Assembly: GCA_904424815.1 (NCBI GenBank)
Contig: CAJGBI010000001.1
Span: 1 to 64,000 of the forward strand
Direction: 5' to 3'
Source of the DNA: Puniceicoccaceae bacterium Marseille-Q1082
Lineage (GTDB): Bacteria > Verrucomicrobiota > Verrucomicrobiia > Opitutales > Intestinicryptomonadaceae
Length of the DNA stretch: 64,000 nt
Under the pieces are notes generated by a model, which was not told where the DNA came from, did no database searches, and saw nothing but the letters and a program-made list of their open reading frames with translations. The translations under genes were made by a program, and so were the position numbers. Numbering within the stretch: the stretch's first letter is position 1; the number at the start of each line of letters is the position of its first letter. Positions 26,186 to 43,458 of this stretch are shown piece after piece.

Positions 26186-27643
26186 ATGAAATCGGAAATC
26201 ACTGACGAGAGAATCTTGTGGGAGAAGCGTTCGCGCTACAATCCTCTGCTGGGCTTGCGGCCGCAGACGCTGCGCGCTGCAAACGACGCCTTCAAGACGG
26301 GCTATATGTCGAAGGCCGCGCGCATTTGGGAGGAAGTCGAGGAGTGCGACGGAATTGTCTCCACCGTGCGCGCCAAGCGGCGCAAGAGCGTATCGCGCCT
26401 TGCCTGGAACATCGTTCCGTTCGGTAACGCCTCCGAGGACACGGCCAAGGAGCACGCCTCAATACTTGAGGATTTTTACAACAACATATCGTGGACGCAC
26501 GCCTGCAACGGGCACCGCACGGGCGGGTTCTCCCGTCTTGTGGAGGCCATGCTCGACTGCGTCGGCAAGAAGTATTCCGTGCATGAAATCGTCTGGAACC
26601 CCAATCCGCAGGCGCGCTCTCTCCGCGCGACTTTCAAGTTTGTGCCGCTCTATTTTTTTGAGGATACGTTCGGCGAATTGAGGCTGCTTAAGTCGCCCAA
26701 CGCCGTATTTGGCGACGAATTGAAGCCTGACAAGTGGCTTATCGCCGCAACCGACTATCCGCTGATGGCGGCGTGCTCCGTCTATTATCTGATGAAGCAG
26801 ATGAGCCTTGCGGATTGGCTCGTGTTCTCGCGCCGCTTCGGTTCGGCTTTGGCGTGGCTGAAAACGGACGAGCCCGCCCATTCCGAAAAGTGGGAAGCCA
26901 TGGCCTCCGCCCTCGCGAACATCGACAACGAATCGAGCCTGATGACCGGCAACGCCGATACTCTAACGCTCTTGCAGGCTTCCGGCCAGAACGCCCCTTT
27001 CAAGGAAGTAATAGACCATCTCACGCGCCTTGTGATCACGATGTGGCTCGGCAGCGACCTTGCCACAATGTCCTCGCAGGACGGCGCGGGGGCGAGTTTG
27101 CAGGGCGAGTCGGCGGCGATGCTCGAGGACGACGACTGCCTCTTGATAGAGGAGACTTTGGCAAACACCGTATCGCGCTTTGTAATCCGCTACTATTTCG
27201 GCAACGTCGAGCCCGCAGCATATCTGCAATTCCAGCGCACCGACCGTTCCGACAAGAAGGCCGCCCTCGAAATCCTCGGAATGACGGCGGACAGAGGCGT
27301 TTCCGTCTCCCAAAAGGCGTGGCGCGAGGCAAGCGGAGTCGCCGCGCCCGACGAGGGCGAAGCCGTAATCGAGAAATCGCAGACGCCGATGCTTCAAGAT
27401 TCCGCCTTCGGCGCAAACGACGCTGAAAGCGACATAGACGAGCTTTCCCGCGCGATGAGCACCGAAAAGAAGCGGAAGCTCCTTGCCGAACTCGACCGCA
27501 TCGAGGCTATGGACGACGCCTCTCAGCGCGCCGACGCCCTTGCCGAACTGGAGCGGAATATCGGCGAGTATTTCGACGGCGGCAGGGCCGAAGCGGAAGC
27601 CATGATGAAGATTTTGGAAAGGAGAATTTCAAATGAAAAATAA
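26186..27643 (+). CDS. Portal protein, Mu gp29-like (DUF935)
   Basis: A 485-residue portal protein forming the head-tail gate at the capsid vertex. WEEVEECDGIVSTVRAKRRK, KYSVHEIVWNP and MWLGSDLATMSSQDGAGASL are typical for the DUF935 family. AGGAGG (26171-26176) precedes ATG 26186. It overlaps the protease gene by 11 bases. Confidence 0.9.
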   Translation: MKSEITDERILWEKRSRYNPLLGLRPQTLRAANDAFKTGYMSKAARIWEEVEECDGIVSTVRAKRRKSVSRLAWNIVPFGNASEDTAKEHASILEDFYNNISWTHACNGHRTGGFSRLVEAMLDCVGKKYSVHEIVWNPNPQARSLRATFKFVPLYFFEDTFGELRLLKSPNAVFGDELKPDKWLIAATDYPLMAACSVYYLMKQMSLADWLVFSRRFGSALAWLKTDEPAHSEKWEAMASALANIDNESSLMTGNADTLTLLQASGQNAPFKEVIDHLTRLVITMWLGSDLATMSSQDGAGASLQGESAAMLEDDDCLLIEETLANTVSRFVIRYYFGNVEPAAYLQFQRTDRSDKKAALEILGMTADRGVSVSQKAWREASGVAAPDEGEAVIEKSQTPMLQDSAFGANDAESDIDELSRAMSTEKKRKLLAELDRIEAMDDASQRADALAELERNIGEYFDGGRAEAEAMMKILERRISNEK

Positions 27644-28931
27644 AGCGGGAAAAATTTTGGCGTTTTTGGGGCTTAAATGTTCCGAGACGGACAATCTATC
27701 CAAAAGCGAGAGAAAACGATTTTGCAACGGGTTTTTGGCGTTTTGCAACGGGGTTGCAAAGCGCGACGGGGATAGCGACATTGCGAAGCAATCGCGTAAG
27801 GGGCTTGCCCCTTCAATGGCAGGCGCACCTTGCGCCTGGGCGGCGAACGAGTCCGATGGATTTGAATATGTGGTTCAGGATACGGATCTGGTTTGCGCGG
27901 CAAACGATGGCGACGGCTGGTATCTGGTGGCTCCGTATGGAAATTTCAACCACCGCGTCGGGGTTCAGCGTTTCGACGAGCGGGGCGCGGACGAGATAAT
28001 CGACAAGTACAAGTCCATTTGGGCGCGCCTGAAACGCGCCGCCGGATTCGGGACGACAATTCCCGTCCATCTCGGGCATCCGGACGTGGGCGACGACGGC
28101 AGGCCGGGCATTTCCTCCAAATATCTCGACAAGTCCGTGTACGGCAAAGTGGCGGACTTGGCAAAGTCTCCGGAAGGGCTTCTGGCGAAGATAGACTGGC
28201 AGCCGGATTTCGGGTTGCTTCCGCACGGGCTGCGCTTCTCGCCGTTCTGGCTGATGCGGCCACTTTCAAAGGGCGTATACCGCCCGATGTTCCTCGCGTC
28301 TCTGGGGCTGACGCCAACTCCGAACATTCCCGCAACCGCCGCGGCAAATTCGCTCGAGGAGGCAATTTCAACTGAAAACCAAACAAAGGAAAACCAAATG
28401 ATAAAAGAGCTGTTAACGCTTTTGGGGTATTCCGAAGAGGAGACCCAAAAGTATCTGGACAAATCGGAGGGCGCACCTTCCGAAGACGAAATCAAGGCCA
28501 AGATAAAAGCCATTTTCGACGGGGCGGGAAACGCCGAAGCCGCGAAAACCGCGCAGGCCGAGGCTGAAAAGAAGCTCGCCGAAGCGCAGGCCGCCGCGGC
28601 TAACGACAGGGCCGCCGCAGCGGAAATTGTAATTAACGCCGCTATAAAGTCCGGCAAACTCACGGAGGCCGACCGCGCCGCCCGTACCGAAACTCTGAAG
28701 AAGGCTGCGGATTTTGTCGCCGCCGCAAATGAAATCGAGGCCTTGCCGGTTGTAGTGGAAACCAAGCCGGAGACTGACGGCCTCAAACAGGGGGACGCGA
28801 AGGCCAACGCCAAGGCCGCTTTCAACGGGCTTGTCGCCAAATACGAATCTGAGGGCATGAGCCATTTTGACGCCACGATGCGCGCCAAGCGCGAAATCCC
28901 CGAGCAGTACAAGCTCGCGTTTGAATCTTAA
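27633..28931 (+). CDS. Prohead protease with C-terminal scaffold (Mu gpI/Z-like)
   Basis: A 432-residue protein. Residues ~60-240 form the Mu I-type protease (AANDGDGWYLVAPYGNFNHR, IPVHLGHPDVGDDGRPGI, HGLRFSPFW). From residue 256 follows a scaffold domain with a charged coiled coil (AQAEAEKKLAEAQAAAANDR). The first ~55 residues are unusually AT-rich and Lys/Cys-rich. A second ribosome site and ATG at 28398 would produce the scaffold alone. Confidence 0.85.
   Translation: MKNKAGKILAFLGLKCSETDNLSKSERKRFCNGFLAFCNGVAKRDGDSDIAKQSRKGLAPSMAGAPCAWAANESDGFEYVVQDTDLVCAANDGDGWYLVAPYGNFNHRVGVQRFDERGADEIIDKYKSIWARLKRAAGFGTTIPVHLGHPDVGDDGRPGISSKYLDKSVYGKVADLAKSPEGLLAKIDWQPDFGLLPHGLRFSPFWLMRPLSKGVYRPMFLASLGLTPTPNIPATAAANSLEEAISTENQTKENQMIKELLTLLGYSEEETQKYLDKSEGAPSEDEIKAKIKAIFDGAGNAEAAKTAQAEAEKKLAEAQAAAANDRAAAAEIVINAAIKSGKLTEADRAARTETLKKAADFVAAANEIEALPVVVETKPETDGLKQGDAKANAKAAFNGLVAKYESEGMSHFDATMRAKREIPEQYKLAFES
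28398..28931 (+). CDS. Internal start: capsid scaffold protein (Z-like)
   Basis: AAAGGA (28385-28390) lies 7 bases before ATG 28398, in frame with the protease gene. The product would begin MIKELLTLLGYSEEETQKYL and run 177 residues to the common stop, the scaffold half only. Mu makes its scaffold Z from inside the protease gene in the same way. The same AACAAAGGA type of leader precedes other genes of this operon (28954, 35658), which supports real use. Confidence 0.6.
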   Translation: MIKELLTLLGYSEEETQKYLDKSEGAPSEDEIKAKIKAIFDGAGNAEAAKTAQAEAEKKLAEAQAAAANDRAAAAEIVINAAIKSGKLTEADRAARTETLKKAADFVAAANEIEALPVVVETKPETDGLKQGDAKANAKAAFNGLVAKYESEGMSHFDATMRAKREIPEQYKLAFES

Positions 28932-28953
28932 ACCCAAACAAAGGAACCATCCA

Positions 28954-29394
28954 ATGAAAAGAATCATGGAAAAAATCCGCCGCCTGTTCGCCCCGTGCGT
29001 GTGGGCGGCAAATGATACGCTCGTCGGCATTCATCCCGAGGGCGCAATAAACTGCGTAGCAGACGGCGCAATCGTACGCAACAGCCTCGTCGCGCTTTCG
29101 TCCGGCAAAGTCGTCGCGTGCGCCGCAAATAACCGCCCGCTCGGCTTTGCGCAGGACAATGCCGCCGAGGGCGAAGGGCTCGCCGTAAGGCTTCTGGGCA
29201 ATGCGGTGGGAACCGCGGTGGGAATCGCCGCTGAAACCGTAGCGCAGGGAGACCCTCTCTACGAGGCCGCAAACGGCAAGGTCGGCAAGACGGAGGGCGG
29301 ATACTTCATCGGCTACGCCCTGAACGCCGCATCCGCCGGCGGAGAAGTGGAAATCCAGCACTGCGTCCCGCAGGCGATTCCGGCTTCCGAATAA
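28954..29394 (+). CDS. Head decoration protein (DUF2190-like)
   Basis: A 146-residue protein with GAIVRNSLVALSSGKVVACA, PLGFAQDNAAEGEGLAVRLL and GYALNAASAGGEVEIQ, the repetitive beta pattern of DUF2190 capsid decoration proteins. ATG 28954 has AAAGGA upstream. It lies between scaffold and major capsid genes, the usual place. Confidence 0.78.
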   Translation: MKRIMEKIRRLFAPCVWAANDTLVGIHPEGAINCVADGAIVRNSLVALSSGKVVACAANNRPLGFAQDNAAEGEGLAVRLLGNAVGTAVGIAAETVAQGDPLYEAANGKVGKTEGGYFIGYALNAASAGGEVEIQHCVPQAIPASE

Positions 29395-29412
29395 CCTTAA
29401 AAAATCAAAGTC

Positions 29413-30357
29413 ATGGAAAAGATACACGAACTTACCAATTCCAACCTCAATAGCGGCTTCATTTGCGCCGCCAATGACCGCGTGGCGGACTCGCAATTCA
29501 GCGAGGCCCTCACCAACTTTGCAAGCGGGGTCAGGAGCGAGAAGTACGAGGCTCTGCTCAACTTCATCGCCCCCGCCGTGCGCGCAAACCGACGCTTCGA
29601 GTTCCGCAAGGGCGGCAAGGGGGAATTCCTCGCCGACAGTGAAGACGTGCGAAACGTCGGCGGCGACTTCAAGCGGCTCGAAGTGAAGGGCGAAATCGTC
29701 CAGGAAAAGACGCTCAACAAGGGCCTTACCATCCGAATAGACAACGACGAACGCTACGACGGAATCGAGGAGGAGAAAACCCAGAGCCTCGTTCGCCGCC
29801 TGATTCGCAACGAATGCGTGCGGGCTGTCGCCATGCTGCTTTCCGTGGCGGGGTCCGCCGCCTCCAAATCGTGGGCGACCGGCTCTACCAAGACGCAGCC
29901 CGACGCCGACCTGCGCGCCCTCATAGATTCGGTGGGAGACGCGGTAATGCTCGACGCCAACCGCCTGCTCATAGGCTCGAAGGCATGGAGCACGCGCCTT
30001 GAGGTCTACGAAAGCTCCACCGCCCCCTATGCGGGAGTGGCCGCAAACTTCGGGGCCCAGCAGCTCGCCGACAAACTCGGGCTCGACGGCGTATTCAAGA
30101 GCACAGAGCGTGTCGAAACCGTATCCGGAAAGGCAAAGGTTACAAACAGCGCGTATGCGGTCGCCTTTATCGGCATGGACGGGGCGACAGACCTCGACCC
30201 CTCGACGCTCAAACGCTTCTGGAGCCCGTGCGACGGTGGCGAAATGTTCCGCATCTGGCGCGACGAAAAGGCGAAGTGGGTGGACATCACGGTCGAGCAC
30301 TACTCCAACATCGTAAACACGGTGGCGGGCGGCGCGAAAGCCATATCCGTGTCCTAA
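29413..30357 (+). CDS. Major capsid protein, Mu gp34 (T)-like
   Basis: A 314-residue major head subunit. HK97-type features are the alpha/beta mix with VRANRRFEFRKGGKGEF, TLNKGLTIRIDNDERYD, NRLLIGSKAWSTRLEVY and the C-terminal WVDITVEHYSNIVNT. Length and position match Mu T. It is followed by a very stable hairpin (30366-30399). Confidence 0.88.
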   Translation: MEKIHELTNSNLNSGFICAANDRVADSQFSEALTNFASGVRSEKYEALLNFIAPAVRANRRFEFRKGGKGEFLADSEDVRNVGGDFKRLEVKGEIVQEKTLNKGLTIRIDNDERYDGIEEEKTQSLVRRLIRNECVRAVAMLLSVAGSAASKSWATGSTKTQPDADLRALIDSVGDAVMLDANRLLIGSKAWSTRLEVYESSTAPYAGVAANFGAQQLADKLGLDGVFKSTERVETVSGKAKVTNSAYAVAFIGMDGATDLDPSTLKRFWSPCDGGEMFRIWRDEKAKWVDITVEHYSNIVNTVAGGAKAISVS

Positions 30358-30365
30358 GCAACCGT

Positions 30366-30399
30366 CGCGCGGAGGCGGGCAAATAGCCCGCCCCGCGCG
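30366..30399 (+). terminator. Strong hairpin after capsid gene
   Basis: Two stacked stems, CGCGCGG / CCGCGCG and GGCGGGC / GCCCGCC, with a 5-base loop and one bulged A, followed by a pyrimidine-rich stretch ending in TATATTTTTT. It may be a partial terminator or a stabiliser of the abundant capsid mRNA. Confidence 0.5.
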
Positions 30400-30423
30400 G
30401 CATCCCTTTCTCTTATATTTTTT

Positions 30424-31236
30424 ATGAATCCGGTTTTTCCATATTCGGGCGGCAAACGCAGAATGCTGAAGCACATTTTGCCCGTGATTCCGCAGCACGA
30501 TACCTACATTGAACCCTTTGCGGGAGGTTTGGCTGTGTTCCTGGCAAAGGAACGCGCAAAGGTTGAAGTGATAAACGATTTGAACGACGAGGTGTCGGGA
30601 TTTTATTTGTATGTGCGCGAGCATCTGGACGCGCTGCTTTCCGAAATGGAGTGGTACCTGCATTCCGTGGAAATTTTCAACCGCCTGCAGGAAAACAAGG
30701 GGCTTACCGAGCTTCAAAAAGTCGCGCGATGGTATCTTTTGAAAGTGTCGTCGTTTAGCGGTTTTGGCGACTACTACGCGCGCGATCCGCGCGGATATCG
30801 CGGATTCGACAAGGTAAAACATGTTCCCGCAATCAAAGAACTCCATGAGCGTCTTCACGGCGTTTACATTGAAAAACGCGACTGGCGGCATGTTGTGAAA
30901 TTTTACGACAAGGAATCCGCCTTCATCTACTTTGACCCGCCTTATTGCACGGCCGACAGCGGCGTCTATGACGTTTGGGAGCCCGCAGACATGGAGTTGT
31001 TGCGAAACAGTCTCTACACCCTCAAGGGCAAGTGGCTGCTTTCTTGCGACGGGTCGGATATTTGTAGGGAAATCTTCGCAGACTTCGCAAAAGTCGAAGT
31101 TCCGTTTAAATATTCGGCGGGTACGGGCGACAGAATTCGCCCAGTAAAGAGTGAAATGCTCGTCGCCTGCGACGCGCTTGCGGACGCCTTGCAGGGGAAT
31201 TTCAACGCCGTTTCAGGGCTTCGGCAAGCGGCATAA
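30424..31236 (+). CDS. DNA adenine methyltransferase, Dam-like
   Basis: A 270-residue D12-class N6-adenine methyltransferase. FPYSGGKRRML and EPFAGGLAVFL form the AdoMet site and YFDPPYCTADSG (DPPY 171-174) is the catalytic motif, in the order usual for Dam-type enzymes. It lies with a C5 methyltransferase between the capsid and head-completion genes, an insertion compared with Mu, and probably protects phage DNA from host restriction. The target sequence cannot be read from the protein. Confidence 0.88.
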   Translation: MNPVFPYSGGKRRMLKHILPVIPQHDTYIEPFAGGLAVFLAKERAKVEVINDLNDEVSGFYLYVREHLDALLSEMEWYLHSVEIFNRLQENKGLTELQKVARWYLLKVSSFSGFGDYYARDPRGYRGFDKVKHVPAIKELHERLHGVYIEKRDWRHVVKFYDKESAFIYFDPPYCTADSGVYDVWEPADMELLRNSLYTLKGKWLLSCDGSDICREIFADFAKVEVPFKYSAGTGDRIRPVKSEMLVACDALADALQGNFNAVSGLRQAA

Positions 31237-31255
31237 CAATCAACGAAGAGGACGA

Positions 31256-32041
31256 ATGAATGAGCTACACTTATTTGTTGGAGGGGGCGGAGGCATACTC
31301 GGCGGAATGCTTTGCGGGCATACCTGCGTCTGCGCCGTCGAAATCGAGCCCTATTGCCGCGAAATTTTGCTCCAAAGGCAGCGAGACGGAATGCTGCCGA
31401 AGTTCCCGATTTGGGACGACGTGCGGACATTCGACGGCAGGCCGTGGCGGGGGAAAATCGACGTCGTCTGTGGCGGCTTCCCGTGCCAGGACATTTCCTC
31501 GGCAAACAGAAAGGCCGTCGGAATCTGCGGCGAAAGAAGCGGCCTCTGGCGCGAAATGGCCCGCATCGTCGGGGAAGTCGGGCCTGAATACGTCTTTGCC
31601 GAAAACTCACCGATGCTCGAAAGCAGGGGCGTCGAGCGCGTCCTCGAAGACCTCAACGCGCTCGGCTACGACACGCGGCGCGTCAAACTCGGAGCTGAAA
31701 ATCTCGGCAAAACGGTACGGCAAAGGCTTTGGATTCTGGGGCGTCGTGCAGGCGAGCCGGATAACCCACGGAATGTCGGCTGCCGCGACGCTGAATACGA
31801 AGTACGGAGTGATTGTTTCCTCCGCACATCGGCGTTTTCTGGAATCCTTCGGGCATCTCCCCCCGCCGGAGTTTGCGGAATGGGCGATGGAGTTCCCCAT
31901 CGGCTAGACAGGCTTGCGACGGTTGGCAACGCGCAAATTCCGGTCGTGGCGGCACTCGCGTTTACGGTTCTTAAAGGGAGTTTCGATAACCCCGAAATCG
32001 AAAAAATCGACTTTGCGGAACATTTCCGCGAAGCCGCTTAG
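31256..32041 (+). CDS. DNA (cytosine-5) methyltransferase
   Basis: A 261-residue C5-methyltransferase: LHLFVGGGGGILGG (motif I), GGFPCQDIS with Cys77 (motif IV), ENS 116-118 (motif VI), RQRLWILG (motif VIII) and LATVGNAQIP (motif X). The target-recognition part (about 165-225) is short and less natural. The +1 frame over the same DNA encodes a stretch that looks like the C-terminus of another phage methylase type. It probably acts with the Dam-like enzyme in anti-restriction. Confidence 0.85.
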   Translation: MNELHLFVGGGGGILGGMLCGHTCVCAVEIEPYCREILLQRQRDGMLPKFPIWDDVRTFDGRPWRGKIDVVCGGFPCQDISSANRKAVGICGERSGLWREMARIVGEVGPEYVFAENSPMLESRGVERVLEDLNALGYDTRRVKLGAENLGKTVRQRLWILGRRAGEPDNPRNVGCRDAEYEVRSDCFLRTSAFSGILRASPPAGVCGMGDGVPHRLDRLATVGNAQIPVVAALAFTVLKGSFDNPEIEKIDFAEHFREAA

Positions 32042-32053
32042 AAAGGCTGCATA

Positions 32054-32515
32054 ATGGCAAGATGGGTAAAGATTACAATCGAGGATATTGCGAGCTACCA
32101 GGCGGGCGCGATCGTAAAGGCTTTGGAAAGCAAGGCAAAGTATTCGGACGCGCAGGAAAATCCGCTTGAAGTCGCCATAGAGCGCATTACTGCGCGCATA
32201 AGAAGCGACGTCAAAAGCGGCGGGTTCTCCGTGGACGTTGACGATTCAAAGGTTCCGGGCGAGCTGACCGCCGAGGCGGTGGCCCTCATTGTGGAATTTG
32301 CCAAGCCGCGACTAATGCAAAAGCTCTCCGCAGACGAAGTGAACCTCGCAAACGCCGCGCGCGCCCGCCTCGACAAAATCGCGGAGGGAAAAATAAAACC
32401 CTCTCTTCCCGACAATCCTGAACCCGCCGCCGTTAGCGTCCAGGCGAGCGGCGGATGCCAGCTCGTGCGTCCCGCGCGCGGAGTTCCTCAGCGCGGGGAT
32501 TATAACGGAATGTAA
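32054..32515 (+). CDS. Head completion protein, Mu gp36-like (DUF1320)
   Basis: A 153-residue protein. The layout (QAGAIVKALESKAKYSDAQE, IERITARIRSDVKSG, then an alpha-helical MQKLSADEVNLANAARARL) fits the head-tail connector/completion role of gp36 at this place in the operon. The family match is by pattern and position. It is followed by the intergenic repeat element. Confidence 0.65.
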   Translation: MARWVKITIEDIASYQAGAIVKALESKAKYSDAQENPLEVAIERITARIRSDVKSGGFSVDVDDSKVPGELTAEAVALIVEFAKPRLMQKLSADEVNLANAARARLDKIAEGKIKPSLPDNPEPAAVSVQASGGCQLVRPARGVPQRGDYNGM

Positions 32516-32676
32516 TGAAAAATGAATAATGAAGAATGAATAATGTAATTCAACAACCCTTGCGCAGTACAAAAGCTTTATGTTCGAGCATAGAGCGGAC
32601 AGGCGCGCCTGCGAGTGTGACGGGCGCGTTGCGCCCCAATTATTCATTATTCATTTTTCATTTTTAATTATGCCTT
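32516..32676. repeat. Duplicated intergenic element, copy 1
   Basis: About 160 bases. Both edges are built of AATGAAT/ATTCATT units (AATGAATAATGAAGAATG on the left, ATTATTCATTATTCATT on the right), making a long imperfect inverted repeat around a GC-rich core that begins AATTCAACAACCC and holds GGGCGCGTTGCGCCC. Copy 2 lies at 35394-35620 with about 80% identity in the core. There is no gene inside. Confidence 0.75.
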
Positions 32677-33948
32677 ATGCCTAATCTGTCTGTCAGTCTC
32701 GCTTCCGACCCAAAGGCGGTATCGCGCTTTGAGGGGCGCAGGGCCGCTCCCAGCACGCGCACGAGCGCGGAGTGGGAGCGCGTGGCTCCGGCCCTGCGCG
32801 AGAAGTGCTTTTTTTCGGCGCGCGTCAACGACGCCGAAGTTCTTGGCAAGATGCGGGAACTCATCGGGAAGGCGGTCGATTCCTCCAAGCGCAATCCGAA
32901 CGAGGCGTTGGTATCGCAGGACAAGTTCATATCCGAGATGAAGTCCTTTTTACGTTCGCGCGGCTATACTATGGGCGGAAGCAAACTCACGGACATTACA
33001 AGCAGGCGCAGGCTTGGGCTCATCTACGACATGAACATTCAAGAGGCACGCGAATACGCCCGCTATGTGCGCGGGCAGGACGCCGACGCGCTCGACATGT
33101 ACCCTGCGCAGGAATTCGTGAGGGTTGAAAGCCGCCGAGTGCCGCGAACGGACTGGCCGATGCGCTGGCGCGCGGCGGGGGGCAAGATAAGGGGCGGCCG
33201 CATGGTGGCTTTGAAGTCCGACCCCGTGTGGACGAACCTTTCGCGCTTCGGGCGTCCGTACCCGCCATTTGACTACGGCAGCGGCATGGGCGTGGAGGAC
33301 ATAGACAGGGAGGAAGCCGTGGAACTTGGCCTGCTTCCCGACGACGAGCCCGCCGACGAAATCCCCGACTTCGACATTAGGCTGGAAGCGGAAGTCTCCC
33401 TCGACCGCATACCGGAGGACATGCTCGACTCTATTATAAAAGAGACTCCCAACGCGCGCATCGAAGGCGGCAAGCTAAAAATGAGCGACAAAAAGCCTCT
33501 TCCGACCTGGAGAGATACGGGGCTTGAGTCTGCGCGAAACTGGAAACCGAGCGTTAGGGAGACGACTATTTCAAAAACGGAAGCCGAAAAAAAGCTGAAA
33601 GACGGCTTTGCCGTGAGCGACCCGACGGGCAACGCCGCGGTTTTCTCCGACGACACCATTCATTGGCGAAAAAGTCTGACGGAAAAAGATGCCGCCGACG
33701 CCTTCGGACGCCTGATACGCCTGCCCATGGCCGAAATGTGTGTCTCCCGGTCAAAGGAAATCTGGCAGCTTCCCAACGGCATGCGCAACTACGTCTTGGA
33801 TTATACCAATAGGAACGGAAAACATAAGGGTATTGCTACATCAGTATATCCCGACGGAGGAGTTCATACCTACTTTATAGAGGATATAAACGGACTGAAC
33901 CTTTTTAGAAAGGGAGAATGTATCTACAGAAAAAAGGATGGCGATTAA
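32677..33948 (+). CDS. Minor head protein gpF-like with C-terminal nuclease-like cassette
   Basis: A 423-residue protein. Residues ~60-240 are the Mu F/gp30 head-morphogenesis domain (SRRRLGLIYDMNIQEAREYA, YPAQEFVRVESRRVPRTDW, WTNLSRFGRPYPPFDYGS). After a linker the C-terminus (about 320-420) reads SKEIWQLPNGMRNYVLDY, GIATSVYPDGGVHTYFIEDI and FRKGECIYRK, which resembles the PBECR group of RelE/EndoU/colicin-like nuclease domains attached to phage head proteins. Codon use becomes AT-rich only over this cassette. An orphan segment similar to its end lies at 34058. The nuclease assignment is by eye. Confidence 0.8.
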   Translation: MPNLSVSLASDPKAVSRFEGRRAAPSTRTSAEWERVAPALREKCFFSARVNDAEVLGKMRELIGKAVDSSKRNPNEALVSQDKFISEMKSFLRSRGYTMGGSKLTDITSRRRLGLIYDMNIQEAREYARYVRGQDADALDMYPAQEFVRVESRRVPRTDWPMRWRAAGGKIRGGRMVALKSDPVWTNLSRFGRPYPPFDYGSGMGVEDIDREEAVELGLLPDDEPADEIPDFDIRLEAEVSLDRIPEDMLDSIIKETPNARIEGGKLKMSDKKPLPTWRDTGLESARNWKPSVRETTISKTEAEKKLKDGFAVSDPTGNAAVFSDDTIHWRKSLTEKDAADAFGRLIRLPMAEMCVSRSKEIWQLPNGMRNYVLDYTNRNGKHKGIATSVYPDGGVHTYFIEDINGLNLFRKGECIYRKKDGD

Positions 33949-34057
33949 GGGAAATCTTAACCGCCACTTGATCCCGAGGGAATAGCCACTTCCTGCACCC
34001 TCGTTCACTGTCTGATTAAAATATCGGCCAAAACATTCAGAAAATCAAGAGAAAAAG

Positions 34058-34210
34058 ATGCTTTTAAAATTTACAGTCAAAGCGGCAAAAGGCAAAACGC
34101 GCGGGTTCGTTGTTGTTGTAGAAGACGGAATGGTGGTGCGCACTTATTTCGCAAAAGATTTAAACGCCCTGAACAATGCACGGAAAGGCGAACTGATATG
34201 GAAAGAATAA
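34058..34210 (+). CDS. Orphan 50-aa remnant of nuclease-like cassette
   Basis: A 50-residue frame. Its first 8 residues (MLLKFTVK) and ~35 bases of leader duplicate the start of the gpG-like gene at 34387. The remainder, FVVVVEDGMVVRTYFAKDLN then NNARKGELIWKE, parallels the last residues of the gpF-like protein (SVYPDGGVHTYFIEDING, RKGECIYRK). It looks like the tail of a displaced cassette joined to a copied leader. Whether it is translated is unknown. The flanks 33949-34057 and 34211-34386 have no gene; 34218-34231 forms a short GCGGA/TCCGC hairpin. Confidence 0.55.
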   Translation: MLLKFTVKAAKGKTRGFVVVVEDGMVVRTYFAKDLNALNNARKGELIWKE

Positions 34211-34386
34211 AAAAGACGCGGACGAATCCGCGCCTTGGCGATTTACCGATTTCTCGGCTGGTCGGGGAGCCACCATTACAGGTTCAGTCTGACAACCGTA
34301 GGCGGTAAAAGTATCGCAACTGACTGCACTTCTACCGTTGCTTTAAACACTATCGGCCAAACCCATTTGAAAATCAACTGAAAAAA

Positions 34387-34968
34387 ATGCTTCTGAAATT
34401 CACAGTCAAAATGCGTGCGGGCGAGGATGCGAGGCGAATTGAACGCCTTGCCGCGAAGCTTTCCGACGCGCAAAAGCTCAATGCCGCCGTCGGCAGGGGC
34501 TTTGAGCGGACGCTCCGCCGGCATTTTCGGGAGTTAGACAAACGGCCCAACCGCCGCGGATGGCGCAAGAGCCATTTCTGGGAGAAAATCGCGGCAGACA
34601 CCGTATTTGCGGGGGCCGATGACAACAGGGCCGTCGTTTCGATAGGTTCGGATTCCGGCCCGAAGTTCGCCGCAAAGGTGTTCGGCGCGAGGATTCGCCC
34701 CAAGGGCGGCAAAAAGTTTCTGGCGATTCCGGCGATTGAGGCGCGCTACGGGGTTAGCCCCTCGAGCCTCGACAAGAGCGAACTCCAATTCCGCCGGACG
34801 CGCCGCGGCGGGTTGCTCGGCGTCATACGCGCGGACGGCACAATGCAGGTTCACTACTGGCTTGTGCGCAAGGCCGACACCCCGCGCGACCCCGACGCGC
34901 TGCCGAAGAAAGAAACCGTACTGGAGGACGCGAAAAAGGAAATTTCAAAATACCTTAGAATAAAATGA
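34387..34968 (+). CDS. Virion morphogenesis protein, Mu gpG-like
   Basis: A 193-residue tail-completion/virion morphogenesis protein: RRHFRELDKRPNRRGWRKSH, FWEKIA and KFLAIPAIEARYG are typical of Mu gpG (phage_tail_S type). It overlaps the next gene by 4 bases. Its leader and first codons are duplicated upstream at 34021-34085. Confidence 0.8.
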   Translation: MLLKFTVKMRAGEDARRIERLAAKLSDAQKLNAAVGRGFERTLRRHFRELDKRPNRRGWRKSHFWEKIAADTVFAGADDNRAVVSIGSDSGPKFAAKVFGARIRPKGGKKFLAIPAIEARYGVSPSSLDKSELQFRRTRRGGLLGVIRADGTMQVHYWLVRKADTPRDPDALPKKETVLEDAKKEISKYLRIK

Positions 34969-35393
34969 ACCCGTCAAAATTATACCAATTTCAGGAATGG
35001 CTTGAAGGCAAGGTGGCTGCGGTTTTGCCGGAGGGCGTCGAAGTCATTTGCCGCCGCAAGGGAAATATCGACAACGACATTCAAAACGCGCTTTCGTCGC
35101 TCGGCATCGCGGTTGTGATAGAGCCTCCGCTGCCGCTTGCGTGGGCAAAGACCTACATACTTAAAGCCGAAACCGTCGAAAGCGAAATCCACATTCTGGA
35201 AAACGTCATGCTGCAAAACACGCAGGAAACGGCGTACAGCCTGCTTGAAAAGCTTGCAAAGTCGTTGCACGAGGAACGCTGCGACGAACTCGGCGGGGCT
35301 GTGATCACGCTCGGCAGCGTCCGCGACGAATCGCCCGCGGACGAGCCTGTCCTGCACTTCGTGCTGCCGCTTACGAATGCTCTGAATCTTTAA
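34965..35393 (+). CDS. Tail terminator-like protein, Mu gp37 position
   Basis: A 142-residue protein (EWLEGKVAAVLPEGVEVICR, then ALSSLGIAVVIEPPLPLAWA, ENVMLQNT and VLHFVLPLTNALNL). Pattern and place after gpG suggest the gp37/tail-terminator role at the head-tail joint. The family assignment is tentative. Confidence 0.6.
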   Translation: MNPSKLYQFQEWLEGKVAAVLPEGVEVICRRKGNIDNDIQNALSSLGIAVVIEPPLPLAWAKTYILKAETVESEIHILENVMLQNTQETAYSLLEKLAKSLHEERCDELGGAVITLGSVRDESPADEPVLHFVLPLTNALNL

Positions 35394-35620
35394 TGAATAA
35401 TGAAGAATGAAAAATGAATAATGTAATTCAACAACCCTCGCGCAGTGCGAAAGCTTTATGTCCAGCCATAAAGCAATCGGCCGCGCCTGCGAGAGTAGCG
35501 GGCGCAACGCGCCCCAATTATTGGCTCGTTGCTCTCGCCCCTTCGGGGTGCGCCTGCGGCGCATCTAAACGCGCCTCCGGCTTGTTTTCATTATTCATTT
35601 TTCATTATTCATTCTGAGGC
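35394..35620. repeat. Duplicated intergenic element, copy 2
   Basis: It starts with the same AATGAATAATGAAGAATG edge and the same core (AATTCAACAACCC, AAAGCTTTATG, GGGCGCAACGCGCCC, CCAATTATT) as 32516-32676, then carries an extra ~60 bases with CCCCTTCGGGG and GCGCCTGCGGCGC hairpins before the closing ATTATTCATTTTTCATT edge. The gene-free stretch runs to 35657, where CAAAGGA starts the leader of the next gene. Confidence 0.72.
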
Positions 35621-35657
35621 AAGACCTCTTTCACCTTTAAACTCAACAAAGGAAAAA

Positions 35658-36662
35658 ATGAAACAGTATCCAATCGAAGACATAAAAGCCCCCGCGTATC
35701 TGTTCGTGGGCGGGAGCGTCCTTTTCATAAAGGACAACATAAAAGTGCAAAAGACCTCGGCGCGCCTTGACGTGGCGACCTCGCACGCGATAAAGGCGGG
35801 CGACATTATCACCGACCAGGCGATAACGATAAAGGGCTCGCCAGTGGCGTTCTCGAACATAGACGCGCTCTTCAAGGAATTGAAGCTCGTAAGGGGCGCG
35901 CGCATTCCCAAGATTGAAAACTTCTATATAGTCGCGCGCGTCGCTTCCGACAAGTGGGTGAAGTGGACATTTCTGCCGGCAATTCACGACACGATAGGCA
36001 GCATTACTTTCGGGGCGAACCTGCCGCTCGGAGAGCACGGCTGGACGGTCTATCCCGACCCGCTGAATCCGACATCTCCCATGGTGACGAGCTCCGAACT
36101 TGACGCCGCCCCGACCGTTCCGGACATGGAGGACGCGGGGAAGTTCATGCTGCGGTGCCTCGGAATCTACGGAGAGGGCGACAGCGCGATAGACTTCGAC
36201 ACCGACGGCGCGAGCATTGAAATTTCCCTCACGACGGAGGACGCGCAAAACGACCGTTTGATTAAGTACGGCAAAAACCTCACGGATATGAGCGTTTCGG
36301 CCAAGTTCAAGCCAAGAAACATCACGCTTGAAAAGTGGCAGACGCTCACGGGGATTTTAAAGAGCGACACTCTCGGGGAATTTAAGGGCGTAGGCTCGCT
36401 TCCGAATCTTGTCTTGCGCGGGGCGAAGAGCGGCGACTTCCAGTTTACTCTTAAATCCGCGCGCTGCGCAGACCCGTCGGCAACTTTCAGTCCGTCCGAG
36501 GCGTTGATGGACGAGCTGACGTTTGAGGCGATGGGCGACAACCTGGGCGACAACAAGCTCACCATCGGCACGGCCGCTGCGGACTTCACGTTTGAAACGG
36601 ATACGGTGCTTACGGCGAAGCTTTCGAGCAAGGGCTCTAAGTCCGGAACGGTGGTTGCGTGA
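35658..36662 (+). CDS. Tail tube protein
   Basis: A 334-residue beta-rich protein (SHAIKAGDIITDQAITIKGS, IEISLTTEDAQNDRLIKYGK, MSVSAKFKPRNITLEKWQTL) with the pattern of long-tail tube subunits. No sheath gene precedes it, which argues for a non-contractile tail. AAAGGA precedes ATG 35658. The next gene starts in the stop (TGATG). Confidence 0.65.
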   Translation: MKQYPIEDIKAPAYLFVGGSVLFIKDNIKVQKTSARLDVATSHAIKAGDIITDQAITIKGSPVAFSNIDALFKELKLVRGARIPKIENFYIVARVASDKWVKWTFLPAIHDTIGSITFGANLPLGEHGWTVYPDPLNPTSPMVTSSELDAAPTVPDMEDAGKFMLRCLGIYGEGDSAIDFDTDGASIEISLTTEDAQNDRLIKYGKNLTDMSVSAKFKPRNITLEKWQTLTGILKSDTLGEFKGVGSLPNLVLRGAKSGDFQFTLKSARCADPSATFSPSEALMDELTFEAMGDNLGDNKLTIGTAAADFTFETDTVLTAKLSSKGSKSGTVVA

Positions 36663-37141
36663 TGCGGCTCGTAGTCGGAGATAAAATCATTGCCGACGCG
36701 GCCTCGGACGGGTTGACGCGCTGGATTCGCGCGGGAAAGCCCGAGCTGCGGCTGCGCGCGAACTCGCTGGAAATTGTGGGCGCGAAATACGCCCGCAATT
36801 CCTCGCGGGCGTGGGGGCAGTATTTTTCCTTTATCGTGACGGTCGGCAGGCAGTTTGCGTCCTACGCCGCCGCCGAGGACTTTTGGCTTTCCCATACTGC
36901 GGAGCTTTCAAGCGGGGCGGAGGGCGTTTTGAAGTACGAAGGAATCTTGGGCAAACTCTACGGCTTTGAAAACGCCGCCCTTGAAGGCGTGAAGCCGGTG
37001 TCGGAAATCGGCGTATCGACTGAAATCGAATACACTTTCCGCTGCGGACGCCCAACAGAGGACTTTGACAGCTTGATTGTGGTCAACGGCGCGGTGCTCA
37101 AAATCGGGGAATTTTTCCCGTACATAAAGGCAAATCTATGA
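36662..37141 (+). CDS. Phage tail protein of unknown role
   Basis: A 159-residue protein (MRLVVGDKIIADAASDGL, WGQYFSFIVTVGRQFASYAA, TEIEYTFRCGRPTEDFDSLI). Repetitive beta strands and the position between tube and fibre genes suggest a tail component. It overlaps both neighbours by 1-4 bases. Confidence 0.6.
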   Translation: MRLVVGDKIIADAASDGLTRWIRAGKPELRLRANSLEIVGAKYARNSSRAWGQYFSFIVTVGRQFASYAAAEDFWLSHTAELSSGAEGVLKYEGILGKLYGFENAALEGVKPVSEIGVSTEIEYTFRCGRPTEDFDSLIVVNGAVLKIGEFFPYIKANL

Positions 37142-39162
37142 GAAATCTTGAAGAGAAAGAGATAAAGCAGTTTTCGGAATTTACCGAGGTGACGCCGGAA
37201 TCGTCGCAGAACTTGATAACCGACAAGGGCCGCTTCACCGTCGGCGCGCTATTTAGCGCGGTCGTCGCCTATGCTACGGACTTGATAAATGCGGCGGTAA
37301 ACAGCGCGGTGAGCGGCGTGCAGGCGTTGATAACTTCGGCCGCGGAGGACGCTGCGGAAGAGGCCGTCGAGGGCGTCCAGGAGACGATTGCGGCGGCGGC
37401 GTCAAGCGCGGTGACGCAGGCGGAGAGCGCAAAGGCGGGAGCGGAGGCGGCAAAGACCGCGGCGGAAACTGCCAAGAGCGGCGCGGAGACGGCGAAGGAC
37501 ACGGCCGTCGCAAAGGCGGAGCAGGCAGCCTCCGACGCCGACGCGGCGGCCGCCGACAAGGCGGCGGTGCAAACCATTAAGACGGAAGTCCAGTCGCTAA
37601 AATCCGCCGCGGAAGCCGCCGCGCAAAGCGCGCAGGAATCGGCGTTCTCAAAGGCAAATAGTCCGCAACTGTGGTTCAATCGCGGCAAACTAAACGTACC
37701 GGATTGGCCGTCTGTCGTACTTCCGCTGCCGTTTTCGCTCGCGATAGAATACGAGGTCGAAAGTTGGGACGGAATAAGCTACGAATACAACAACGAATTT
37801 TCCTTCTTCAACTGTACGAACGCCGACTGGGACGCTTCGGGCTATCCGATTTATGGATTCCGCCTTACCAAGAACGGGGAATCGACTTTGGGATTTACGC
37901 TCGGCGGCTGCGGCGGCGAGGGAATGGGAGCGTCGCGCGGATGGACAGGAAGCATAACGCTGCCGACGGGCAGGCACACGCTCGCCCTCGCCGTTCCCGC
38001 GCCCGACGCAAGCGGCAACAACCCCGCGTCCATACCGGTATACATAGACGGCGAAAACGCGGGCAGCCTCGTCGCATCAGTCGGCAAGCACAACACGTCG
38101 GTTTCATTCCAAAAGCCGCTTGTGATAAACGAGCGCGGAGTGTATACTGGCGGCGCAACCTTCAACGAATTTGAAATCGCGCTTTCGCGAATCTCGATTT
38201 TCAGTTTCGACATATCGGCCGAAAGCGCGCCGTACACCGTCGCCGACTACGCGGCGGGCAAGAGTGTTCCGCCGTCGCTTTTGCGCTCGTCGATATTCGG
38301 CGACAAGAGCTATAACATTTATTACAGGTCGAACGCGGCAAACAATTACGACGTTGCGACAAGCGCGCTTACTTTCTTCCAGGCTGCGGGAAGCGAATCC
38401 GCGCTTGCGTCATTGCTATTCAATGTGAATTTCCCCGTGCCGATTGCCGCGGGAAAGAAAGTCCGGATAACCTACGATTCTATAACCGGCGACGCCGTTC
38501 AAAACTCGGGCGGGGCCTATGCGTACGTATCGTTTTACGATTCCTCTTCGCAGTACGTCTTGGGCGACGCGCAGTTGACTAACCTTGGCGGCGAAACGAT
38601 TGTCAAGACGCAGACGGCCTCTTACGCCTCGCGCAAGCTGGAAAGGGTCTGCGTGTACGTGTATACGACCGCATCGTCCGAAGCCGAGCAGACGATAAAA
38701 ATCAACGGGCTGCGGATAGAGGTTGACGGCGCGGTCTTGTGTCTCGACGGCTCGGCCGACGGACTTCAGGCGCGCGACATGTCGGAAGGCGGCCACCATG
38801 CCTGGATGTACGGCGGCGTGCGCGCCGGCAGGCCCCGCGCCGCGGGGCAGTCGAACTGGCGGCTTTCGTGGACTTCGGGCAGCTCCACGGGCGCATATTG
38901 CGGGCAAAATTCCGCCGCCCTCGCGTTGCCGGAATTTTCACTCTCGCGCGTGCGCGTCAGGAGCGACAACGCCGCGACATTCAAAGTCGGCGACGCCTCA
39001 AACGCCGCCGCATACTCCGCGGAACTGTCCGTGCCGGCCTCCGGCTGGGCGGAGCTCGAGATAACGACAAAGACGGCTTCCGCCCTTACATTTACGCCGA
39101 CCGCGGCCCTGTCCGCGGCGACAAACTTGGACATCATCATCGAACATAGGAGAACGTACTAA
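37138..39162 (+). CDS. Tail fibre / receptor-binding protein
   Basis: A 674-residue fibre-like protein. The N-terminus binds the particle, then an Ala/Lys/Glu-rich trimeric coiled-coil shaft runs from about residue 45 to 170 (AKAGAEAAKTAAETAKSGAE). The rest is beta-rich, with a concanavalin/LamG-like portion (LPLPFSLAIEYEVESWDG, GRHTLALAVPAPDASGNN, IPVYIDGENAGSL) and further C-terminal strands. It is the best candidate for host recognition. It lies before the tape-measure gene, unusual for a fibre. Confidence 0.75.
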   Translation: MRNLEEKEIKQFSEFTEVTPESSQNLITDKGRFTVGALFSAVVAYATDLINAAVNSAVSGVQALITSAAEDAAEEAVEGVQETIAAAASSAVTQAESAKAGAEAAKTAAETAKSGAETAKDTAVAKAEQAASDADAAAADKAAVQTIKTEVQSLKSAAEAAAQSAQESAFSKANSPQLWFNRGKLNVPDWPSVVLPLPFSLAIEYEVESWDGISYEYNNEFSFFNCTNADWDASGYPIYGFRLTKNGESTLGFTLGGCGGEGMGASRGWTGSITLPTGRHTLALAVPAPDASGNNPASIPVYIDGENAGSLVASVGKHNTSVSFQKPLVINERGVYTGGATFNEFEIALSRISIFSFDISAESAPYTVADYAAGKSVPPSLLRSSIFGDKSYNIYYRSNAANNYDVATSALTFFQAAGSESALASLLFNVNFPVPIAAGKKVRITYDSITGDAVQNSGGAYAYVSFYDSSSQYVLGDAQLTNLGGETIVKTQTASYASRKLERVCVYVYTTASSEAEQTIKINGLRIEVDGAVLCLDGSADGLQARDMSEGGHHAWMYGGVRAGRPRAAGQSNWRLSWTSGSSTGAYCGQNSAALALPEFSLSRVRVRSDNAATFKVGDASNAAAYSAELSVPASGWAELEITTKTASALTFTPTAALSAATNLDIIIEHRRTY

Positions 39163-39398
39163 TGGCAAATTCAAACGCACAGGAAGGCGCGCAGGAAAGC
39201 GCGCAAGTGGAAGTTTCAATCGGCGGCGGAAACGTGCTGCGCATAGAATCCGTGAGGGTGTGCGGCGACGTGCGCGACGCCTCCGGCAAGACGATTGAGC
39301 GCGGCCGCTTTATCGAGCTGGACGCCGCGCAAGTTGCGGCTCTCGGGCAAGAGAACATTCAGGACATCGCCGACGTGTGGGCGGCAGAAAACGATTAG
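39162..39398 (+). CDS. Small phage tail protein
   Basis: A 78-residue acidic protein (QVEVSIGGGNVLRIESVRVC, IERGRFIELDAAQVAAL, IADVWAAEND). The start overlaps the fibre stop (TAATG). It could be a fibre chaperone or an early tail assembly factor; there is no family call. Confidence 0.6.
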   Translation: MANSNAQEGAQESAQVEVSIGGGNVLRIESVRVCGDVRDASGKTIERGRFIELDAAQVAALGQENIQDIADVWAAEND

Positions 39399-39402
39399 GC
39401 AA

Positions 39403-39801
39403 ATGCAAGCGGAAAACAACATGGCGACGTTCCTCGGGTATGAGGAAGTGGAACTTTCAAAGCCGTTGAACGGCAAGAAATCGGTAAAGGTAAAATGCCT
39501 GCCGGTGAGAAAGCTCGCGGAATATGCGGCTTTGTTTACGATAGAGCCGGAACTCATCGAGCTTGCGACGGAACTCTCGGCGGAAGAAGTTGACATGCTC
39601 TCCGCGGAGGATTCCGGCAAGATTTTTGAAAAGGTGCATGAGCTAAACTTCGACCCTTTTTCGGCGTGGCTGAGACGGAAGGGGAAAGCCGCCGAGATGC
39701 AGGCCCAGGCTTATGGGATAGCCCTTCCGAAAGACGGACAAGCGACCGATGGCGAAGAACCTGCGAGCTCGCCGGATGGATTGCCGCAAACTCAGGGCTG
39801 A
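39403..39801 (+). CDS. Tail assembly chaperone, short form
   Basis: A 132-residue protein (MATFLGYEEVELSKPLNGKK, VKVKCLPVRKLAEYAALF, FDPFSAWLRRKGKAAEMQAQ). Its position directly before the tape measure and an overlapping open frame in -1 fit the G half of a G/GT chaperone pair. ATG 39421, with GGAA upstream, is an alternative start that removes 6 residues. The heptamer CCCTTTT (39654-39660) is in the phase needed for a -1 shift. Confidence 0.7.
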   Translation: MQAENNMATFLGYEEVELSKPLNGKKSVKVKCLPVRKLAEYAALFTIEPELIELATELSAEEVDMLSAEDSGKIFEKVHELNFDPFSAWLRRKGKAAEMQAQAYGIALPKDGQATDGEEPASSPDGLPQTQG

Positions 39802-39971
39802 CATGGGAGGAGGTTTTAGACTTGTCGCCGTTGAGACTGCGGTTTGTGGCCCGCGCGATAGACCGCCGCCGCGCGCTCGACAAGCTCGCAATCTTCGACG
39901 CGCAGGCCGCCCTCATGGACGAAAAATCCCTCAACCGGCTCAACGCCGAATTGAGGGAGGCTCAAAGGTGA
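39654..39971 (+). CDS. Frameshift extension of tail chaperone (T part)
   Basis: An open frame with no good start of its own, in the -1 phase relative to 39403-39801 and overlapping its end. Its last 70 residues (CELAGWIAANSGLTWEEVLD, then RLRFVARAIDRRRALDKLAI) look like a real chaperone domain. In zero frame the codons around 39654 read GAC CCT TTT, so C CCT TTT allows both tRNAs to slip back by one and pair. The fused product would be about 188 residues. Slippage at another place in the overlap cannot be excluded. Confidence 0.65.
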   Translation, partial: PFFGVAETEGESRRDAGPGLWDSPSERRTSDRWRRTCELAGWIAANSGLTWEEVLDLSPLRLRFVARAIDRRRALDKLAIFDAQAALMDEKSLNRLNAELREAQR

Positions 39972-39983
39972 AAACGGGGAAGC

Positions 39984-40145
39984 CTACTTCTTATACATCT
40001 TTATGACAGGTTTCCCCAAAGGCATATTTTTCAGAAAATCAATACCAAGGTTTATCAGGCACAGAAAGAATATGAAGCCGCCGGTTATGAACAGGCAAAA
40101 TATGACGCATAGTATTTGCGATAAAAGTGAGGGTTCTTCGGTCAT
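39984..40145 (-). CDS. Small one-helix membrane protein on opposite strand
   Basis: A 53-residue protein encoded against the late operon, between the tail chaperone and the tape measure. It opens MTEEPSLLSQI and has one long hydrophobic helix (ILCVIFCLFITGGFIFFLCL) and a basic tail (NMPLGKPVIKMYKK). A purine-rich ribosome site (AAGAAGAGAAG) and a promoter (40166-40195) precede it. Codon use is AT-rich. Such isolated reverse-strand genes are typically expressed in the lysogen, e.g. for superinfection exclusion; that role is inference. Confidence 0.7.
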   Translation of the reverse strand: MTEEPSLLSQILCVIFCLFITGGFIFFLCLINLGIDFLKNMPLGKPVIKMYKK

Positions 40146-40165
40146 CTTCTCTTCTTTCTTTAATT

Positions 40166-40195
40166 AAAATATCGCACAAAGGTTCCACAAATCAA
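40166..40195 (-). promoter_or_regulatory. Promoter of the reverse-strand membrane gene
   Basis: Read on the minus strand, TTGATT (40195-40190) and TATTTT (40171-40166) are separated by 18 bases and lie about 20 bases before ATG 40145. Confidence 0.5.
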
Positions 40196-40212
40196 CAAAA
40201 ATCGGACGGAAA

Positions 40213-43200: not shown

Positions 43201-43458
43201 AAAGGGATGGCGTCGAGGGTGACGCTCGGCGGCGCGGTAGGGGCGGCTGCAAACAGCGTTCCGAACGAAGCCCCGCGCAAGGCTCCGCGCGCAGGAGGAG
43301 AGGAGGAGAGCGAATCGCCCGAAAACAGGCAGCGGCGCACTCAAATTCAAACAAACTCGCAAAACACGCGCCAGCAAACCGCGCAACTATCAAACCCAAC
43401 GCTCGGAATCCTGCGTGAAATTTTAATGAATGTTAAGAGTCTTAGGGAAAGCGATTAA
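40213..43458 (+). CDS. Tail tape measure protein
   Basis: A 1081-residue tape measure that sets tail length. It has predicted coiled coils from the start (AELQKLLTELRAINAEIAKM), a helical MEMBRANE-active-type region around 310-370 (VLIGGLSSLAVGFAFSRIGG), long charged coiled coils ~390-850, and a Gly/Ser/Tyr-rich segment at about 856-911. At roughly 3 nt of coding length per residue and the usual 1.5 angstrom per residue, the tail would be about 0.16 micrometre (estimate). It is followed directly by the last late gene. Confidence 0.88.
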   Translation: MADEKPYNISIETKAQLAELQKLLTELRAINAEIAKMNGLTFSSINASVSELAKAGKELSSALVSLPKTMDTIADDVKKIGEESKKAGEDLNGLKTTAQGVFMELGAQITDFAVNKLKQIPAAIMSSIEAFGQQEMAVQKLAAAIRSQGGNVSEILPIYESLAGEMQRLTTYGDEEVLALQSTATAMGVTSEQMDLCIKGAIGLSNVFGIGLNEAVRAAATVVQGKTDKLNEMIPALSKCKSETEKYAIAEKAMKDGFAQAKAEAESTSGKLKQAANAWGDLAEVAGETFAPVAVEVAGALKSVCEWLSKNSEIIQVLIGGLSSLAVGFAFSRIGGLASVAALFKTVSAAIAGTKAASDALNVSLKANPLGIAMTAVSAFALLVSHLHSKEKARYESNIEQSKEYRDGIDAEIDAMKQWGISAEDNEKRTAEVADEIAKLKAEEEEYRKSHGQLRGAYGGAMYKVYSKEEQAEIDNYRAKIEKLEERQKAAANVKELDALAAKRHAAAVAASEEILAKSAEEMRAAQSATEALKVTRERYARTEKEIAELQKAFDGGKIADSERVAKAERLRRARLELLELGKKEIEQETALAASKYAALKTAELNKQNDLEARLAGARLHGNAAEAKSLETELEGVKIQRKRLDIITAYISARKSEIKTAEDLNRIQADAARYANATLEFEKQKADSEKWLNGEIERNKAAQRDMEVEILRARAAGNEAGAKELELKLKIAQTAAEIFESTRKEGMSRDELERLQASANEKAREKCELEKSITDEVERQNLAKDAQAKIEDILLTNKIEQLKSEGKLTEARELERERENRRTIAGIPGLSADDKEKLLSTMRQTNDYRDKQEKMRGGGGGSGYGAGTSSYSGGGGYAGSSGGSYGSSGYGGSYGASFGGGYGGAAKYSGPTPPRRPRPATISEKYRGLYNEWQASGGSRSGVSWIDYRNSRRGEVDAAEKARKSYGKTVVTDANTPVAEQRDRAAKTISGIESEAKGMASRVTLGGAVGAAANSVPNEAPRKAPRAGGEEESESPENRQRRTQIQTNSQNTRQQTAQLSNPTLGILREILMNVKSLRESD

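Follow-up and report, generated by a model that had tools for sequence, protein, structure and literature searches.

Jamet et al. (2017; PMC5576092) found a small open reading frame (ORF) behind 89.4% of 191 MuF toxin genes and took it as a likely immunity gene. Bxa, a MuF-ART protein of Bacteroides, is described with two adjacent immunity proteins (PMC11699363). Iyer et al. (2017; PMC5512222) proposed that PBECR domains on MuF proteins are RNases that are injected with phage DNA and are unpaired with immunity, and they characterized PBECR by a His in the first helix and a C-terminal Thr or Ser. For the CDI toxins, integration of a new 3′ end is reported to push the old one downstream with its orientation unchanged, and repeated rounds of this process yield tandem arrays that have been called a “fossil record” (PMC4927057). 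The word “orphan” does not occur in the main text of Jamet et al., and no description of displaced MuF tips was found in the titles and abstract openings of the mainly open-access literature on MuF and PBECR.

Here we describe a locus in a 64,000-nucleotide stretch of DNA (the window), which is part of the 2.7-Mb genome G000; same-genus relatives of this genome include G002, G007, and G008. We consider it very probable that a MuF-type head protein encoded in the window carries an exchangeable PBECR2-like tip (tip A), and that this tip came from a sister phage and displaced an ancestral one (tip B), leaving a stub and spacer B ahead of the next late gene. On this account, repetition of such exchanges stacks remnants, and the tip would be carried in the head and cut RNA in the cell, as its domain family suggests.

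The carrier is a 423-amino-acid ORF on the forward strand (32677-33948) that matches phrog_220 (minor head protein and DNA pilot) with an E value of 2.7e-7 over residues 27-155. We therefore assign it as a MuF-type minor head protein, in agreement with the preliminary description of this DNA, which had placed a phage head protein at the same ORF. The profile is matched by 13 of 14 aligned MuF proteins, a test set that comprised the proteins of the window, L026-L033, L035-L037, and L039 as well as the Akkermansia phage protein of L085, with L038 left out. No Pfam MuF match was obtained for the window protein or for 10 homologues. The position of the gene is also that of a head gene: a Phage cement protein gene lies upstream, and the order of neighbors is the same in the related loci L026 (G007), L027 (G002), and L028 (G008). 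Other late genes of this phage encode what we take to be the portal and capsid proteins.

The late operon upstream of the MuF gene also carries genes for an adenine (D12 class) and a cytosine-C5 DNA methyltransferase (30424-31236 and 31151-32041, respectively). A 132-nt intergenic repeat (83%) occurs at 32513-32644 and 35391-35522, with inverted arms resembling ‘TTCATTATTCATTTTTCATT’ on its sides, and short repeats like it recur between the late genes of L027 and L028. Second homologues of the portal-like and capsid-like proteins, at about 32-44% identity, are encoded elsewhere in the genome (L113; G000:C1:1720402-1721466 and 1723054-1723944). Portal-like and capsid-like queries each found matches in 18 of the 19 genomes of the bacterial family, mostly one such second copy, and these second homologues may belong to a domesticated phage or a gene-transfer-agent-like element.

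Outside the genus, matches to the MuF protein mostly cover residues ~12-258 only, with the exception of L033 (13-417). Named phage records gave five matches (three Akkermansia and two Helicobacter phages) at 22-31% identity and within residues 3-223 only. Conservation among sister phages drops after W289 (about 33543), and the homology between L027 and L028 stops at this same codon. These alignments establish a domain boundary between a conserved part (residues 1-289, 32677-33543) and a C-terminal module, tip A (residues 290-423 plus the stop codon, 33544-33948, both on the forward strand). The preliminary description had started the module at 33480, but its start is better placed near 33543 because sister-phage conservation ends after W289. 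The module had also been called AT-rich. This applies to its second half (GC 0.43 for 33742-33945) and not to its first (0.55 for 33544-33741); the corresponding values are 0.61 for MuF residues 1-289 and 0.57 for 24827-43458.

Tip A of the window by itself has no match in Pfam. PBECR2 was matched by tip B of L028 (E 2.5e-5, 24.9 bits, profile positions 14-119 of 120), the tip of L033 (3.7e-5), tip C of L034 (6.2e-4), and the L027 version of tip A (0.016), all of them under the curated cut-off of 27.1 bits. We nevertheless name tip A “PBECR2-like” because a profile built from three A-type tips aligns with a profile of tip B, tip C, and the L033 tip (hhalign; 125 columns, probability 99.5, E 2.2e-23). 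The resemblance to PBECR nucleases that had been proposed earlier is thus borne out by transitive profile comparison, with direct matches below the cut-off, and tip A is best classed as PBECR2-like and, by family, as RNase-like.

In a sequence alignment, H329 and T398 of tip A fall at the likely His and Thr columns of PBECR, and tip C is alike in this respect; the columns are placed by alignment rather than by structure. Tip B has Asp for His and the L033 tip has Asn for Thr at these columns, and therefore activity may not be uniform among the tips. We infer RNase activity, and nuclease function in general, only from the families to which the tips are related. Structure models of tip A and tip B were poor (mean pLDDT 58.4 and 47.9, respectively), a Foldseek search of PDB and BFVD with the tip A model gave no match at E 0.001, and the predicted fold was left out of the evidence for BECR identity.

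A search of 88 genomes gave 18 MuF matches in 15 of them. Fourteen proteins were complete or nearly complete, and the fragments in L034, L040, L041, and L042 stand outside this tally. PBECR2-like tips are found in five of the 14 (window, L026, L027, L028, and L033). There is also one PBECR3-like tip (L029; E 2.1e-5, below the cut-off) and there are two ART-like tips (L036, E 7.8e-6, above the cut-off; L032, E 1.3e-3, below it). L035 has an HEVVH motif that was seen by eye, with no relevant family match, and the C-termini of L030 and L031 have no family assignment. The remaining three proteins (L037, L038, and L039), judged by length only, end at 264-289 residues and have no tip. Variable C-terminal domains on a conserved N-terminus are a feature of MuF polymorphic toxins that these 14 homologues display. 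The earlier suggestion of a swappable tip is therefore supported by the comparison of related prophages, in which different tips occur at MuF, and the module is not a structural domain common to all gpF-like proteins.

Genome G007 holds two prophages, L036 (ART-like tip) and L026 (tip A), that have 4659 nt of later genes in common at 99.3% identity and differ in their MuF and gpG genes. Because the two share this DNA yet differ in their tips, sister phages do recombine. The sharing is also, in its own right, a sign of recent exchange between co-resident prophages.

A 50-residue frame (the 50-mer; 34058-34210, forward strand) begins 109 nt after the MuF stop codon. The preliminary description had regarded its end as parallel to the end of the module. 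Residues 13-50 do align with the tip of the window (score 73; best of 5000 shuffles, 45), whereas residues 1-12 are identical to the start of the next late gene, gpG, in L026 and differ from the window's own gpG. The fit to tip B of L028 is better than that to the present tip. Over 43 positions, residues 8-50 share 67% identity with the tip B end (E 5.5e-16), and residues 13-50 score 141 (best of 5000 shuffles, 50), compared to 44% over 39 positions for the window's own tip (E 3e-6). When searched alone, the 50-mer aligns with the last part of the PBECR2 profile (positions 77-120 of 120) at an E value of 4.8e-4 and 20.8 bits, under the cut-off of 27.1.

These two sets of alignments identify the 50-mer as a chimera. 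Its first part is a copied gpG start of the L026 type (12 codons, 34058-34093), and the rest is a stub consisting of the 3′ end of tip B, a different PBECR2-like tip, with its stop codon (34091-34210; both on the forward strand), with GG shared at the joint. The displaced tail that had been proposed is present downstream of the tip, but it is the tail of tip B rather than of the present one. The stub lacks the N-terminal half of the domain, which bears the putative catalytic His, so that it can represent no more than part of a domain and is most likely debris. Tip B, spacer B, and gpG follow one another in intact order in L028 and L048. Neither the viral contigs scanned nor the named phage records gave a match to tip B.

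The gene called gpG, by position only (34387-34968, forward strand), has homologues after MuF in L026, L027, and L028 and matches nothing in Pfam or PHROG. It is preceded by spacer B with the gpG leader (34211-34386, forward strand), which shares 76% identity with the spacer that follows the intact tip B of L028 and L048. Spacer A (33949-34057, forward strand) follows the MuF gene, ends in a copy of the gpG leader (34022-34057), and is 100% identical in L026 and 83% in L027 and L040. Leader and gpG start are thus present twice, as a 60-nt direct repeat (82%) whose second copy lies at 34351-34410. MuF and gpG lie 109 nt apart in L026 and 177 nt apart in both L028 and L048, and spacers go with their tips (A with A, B with B, and C with C). 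A third copy of the leader motif (‘ATATCG..CAAA’, 70%) was seen at 40152-40191, just before a long ORF at 40213, and weak matches occur in other phages of the genus; the motif may be a leader common to late genes.

L026 has tip A and spacer A as well, but no stub. Between it and the window there are 154 mismatches in the 1065 bp of 32677-33741 (85.5% identity) and none in 33742-34093. This identical tract of 352 bp on the forward strand starts midway through tip A, covers its second half and spacer A, and takes in 12 codons of gpG in its L026 form. If sites are assumed to be independent, the chance of such a perfect run is near 1e-24 at the upstream mismatch rate and 1e-18 at the rate in the first half of the tip. 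Constraint is an unlikely reason for the identity because the tract includes non-coding and third-position sites, and the alignment demonstrates a recent exchange. Identity stops at 34093, where the stub starts, and the GG at this point is common to tip B of L028.

The displaced and intact states can be compared directly in L027 and L028. These loci are 89% identical through MuF codon 289 and 92% identical again from L028 position 5729, which is the last base of the L028 MuF stop codon. The shared flanks enclose 401 nt (tip B) in L028 and 843 nt in L027. The L027 segment comprises tip A and spacer A, then a tip-C tail accompanied by spacer C, and finally a copied gpG start fused to the beginning of spacer B. 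By these alignments, L027 contains two stacked remnants in a tandem array. The tip-C remnant frame begins with a stretch (5810 to about 5846-5882) for which no clear source was found, and the 628 nt between MuF and gpG of L027 held only small frames, with no integrase or transposase seen. Among the viral contigs scanned with MuF, gpG, and tip A, only IMGVR_UViG_2914150438_000001 matched. This contig is identical to the window over the match, and no second isolate of this phage with the displaced order was seen.

The recombination history that we propose is well supported by these comparisons. The ancestor of the window's phage would have carried tip B, then spacer B, and then gpG. Sister-phage DNA with tip A, spacer A, and the first 12 gpG codons would then have recombined in, on the 5′ side presumably through homology in MuF and on the 3′ side at a joint within the old tip B, where 2-3 bases are shared. 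The 3′ end of tip B and spacer B would have stayed between the new tip and the untouched gpG, and repeated exchange would stack remnants as in L027. To judge from the domain families, the tip may travel in the head, enter the cell with the DNA, and cut RNA there; one reading is that tips would act for the phage in the newly infected cell.

There is about an even chance that the window reached its present state in two events. Tip A would have displaced tip B earlier, and a later gene-conversion-like exchange with an L026-like phage would have replaced the last part of tip A together with spacer A and the gpG-start copy, halting at the stub, where the homology runs out. In its first half, tip A differs from L026 at 11% of positions (22/198), whereas the second half and the spacer are identical. 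Because of this divergence, one transfer from an L026-like phage fails to explain the whole tip, and the locus may already have been displaced when the recent exchange overwrote part of it. Moreover, a homologous tract would naturally stop at the stub. However, the intermediate state was not found, and a second event alters the number of steps and not the displacement, which is left unchanged by either order of events.

A different proposal is that protection lies in the spacers and not in the stub, each tip being accompanied by its own small protein or RNA. We regard this as quite improbable. Each spacer does accompany its own tip, and a TTG-start frame of 48 codons in spacer B (34235-34381) is open in all four copies (window, L027, L028, and L048), which are alike at both ends. 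In addition, RNAalifold predicts a 7-pair hairpin in the shared 3′ part, with three pairs changed on both sides in an alignment of only eight related sequences. Against this, the middle of the 48-codon frame is unlike between the window and L028/L027 (score 36; best shuffle, 35) and the spacer B copies differ by 1- and 2-base indels, and the coding status of the frame is doubtful. Furthermore, the window now carries tip A, whose spacer is interrupted there by stops in each of the three forward frames. A permissive Rfam search of L026, L027, L028, L042, and window positions 33400-34500 gave only matches far below gathering scores, with none on the spacers. Thus, with the 48-codon frame as a reservation, the locus appears to have no recognizable immunity gene, and none is visible between the MuF gene and the 50-mer, as had been stated before.

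The 50-mer itself might be a functional small gene, such as an immunity protein or a dominant-negative partial domain for tip A, but this is highly improbable in our view. Its frame is open and starts at the copied gpG leader and ATG, and therefore it may be translated; a small ORF also lies behind most published MuF toxin genes (89.4% of 191; PMC5576092). Its differences from tip B of L028 lean to third codon positions (9, 5, and 18 in 38 codons), like those of gpG (55, 50, and 93 in 191 codons), although such a codon bias can predate displacement. However, the 50-mer is absent from L026, which has the same tip A, and it consists of half a domain fused to a gpG start.

An assembly artefact across the repeat is scarcely credible: the locus has the 60-nt repeat and two related fragments lie at contig ends, but a repeat of 82% identity with distinct flanks is not easily collapsed, and the same kind of arrangement is present in another genome, in L027 on a 188-kb contig. 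A tandem duplication within one phage, in which the stub is a diverged duplicate of the tail of its own tip, is extremely improbable and is already contradicted by the alignments. The stub is homologous to the window's own tip, and the leader and gpG start occur twice, but tip B of L028 is a far closer match to the stub, and the spacer after it is B and not A.

Solitary tip, spacer, or gpG-start pieces were found at six sites whose surroundings we read as chromosome (G011:C29, G011:C69, G018:C384, G018:C348, G002:C12, and G005:C158). The last of these holds spacer C without a tip or gpG. There is also one N-terminal MuF piece (G002:C32) and a weak match at G005:C119 (E 1.8e-4). At G002:C12 (L069, 4535-5354), an inverted 821-nt piece of an ART-like MuF tip (91%) adjoins the tip-C tail and extends from MuF residue 282 past the stop codon, through the spacer of this tip, into the opening bases of the following gene. 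Genome G010 had no match in any search that included it and may hold little searchable sequence; it was left out of the search that found G018:C348.

As controls, the portal-like, capsid-like, and tail proteins were searched in 19 genomes, with pieces judged by match length alone and their surroundings unread. They yielded a single short piece (portal residues 7-59, G018:C96), a match truncated at a contig edge (G018:C135), and a split gene (G008:C3); the tail protein had no partial matches. A special retention of solitary tip and spacer pieces is no more than suggested by this comparison, because the kinds of query are unequal in sensitivity, two of the pieces lie at contig ends, and tail-gene debris is present at two of the sites. 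Indeed, decayed prophages explain the solitary pieces well enough since two sites also hold this debris. We also considered whether L034 and L042, both in G011, derive from one stacked site. This was not supported, given that the PEPCK-like gene beside L034 was not found in the 14-kb stretches around carA in four relatives (the labels PEPCK, carA, and proS are presumed from our reading of the proteins).

A broader scheme would treat a tip, its own spacer, and a copied leader with the start of the next gene as a recurring exchange unit, each exchange leaving an ordered stub. The solitary pieces in host chromosomes of the bacterial family would then form a silent reservoir of tips for incoming phages, and the spacer would perhaps have an RNA or small-protein function tied to its tip. 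We consider this scheme unlikely.

Our preferred account, displacement of tip B by tip A, places the locus close to several described systems. It resembles the MuF polymorphic toxins of temperate phages, as described in PMC5576092, in its variable C-terminal domain, its RNase-type and ART tips, and its location among prophage late genes. It differs from them in lacking a recognizable immunity gene and in the nature of the small ORF, which derives from an older tip. The tips share their domain family and carrier with the PBECR-MuF fusions of PMC5512222, but displaced stubs and the joint travel of tips and spacers set this locus apart from the account given there. Likewise, the ART tips on MuF in L036 and L032 are similar to that of Bxa as presented in PMC11699363, where the tip also varies among relatives.

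The closest parallel for the displacement is with the orphan cdiA-CT/cdiI modules (PMC4927057) and orphan Rhs modules (PMC3967940), as far as these reports describe them. In both cases, a displaced 3′ end in the same orientation matches an intact tip elsewhere, and remnants can occur in tandem. The likeness to orphan cassettes drawn in the preliminary description is therefore valid for the displaced 3′ end but does not extend to its content, because the toxin and immunity pair of CDI and Rhs orphans is not kept here, where only a half-domain stub and a spacer remain. In addition, the carrier is a phage virion protein, and each remnant comes with a copied start of the next gene. The locus shows, on a virion protein of a phage in a gut bacterium, the displaced-orphan pattern that bacterial polymorphic toxins display. 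The alignment of displaced (L027) and intact (L028) states, together with an exchange tract whose edges can be mapped, makes tip exchange among prophages traceable by genome comparison. An immunity function should not be taken for granted when a small ORF follows a MuF gene, and in this phage that ORF is a piece of an older tip.
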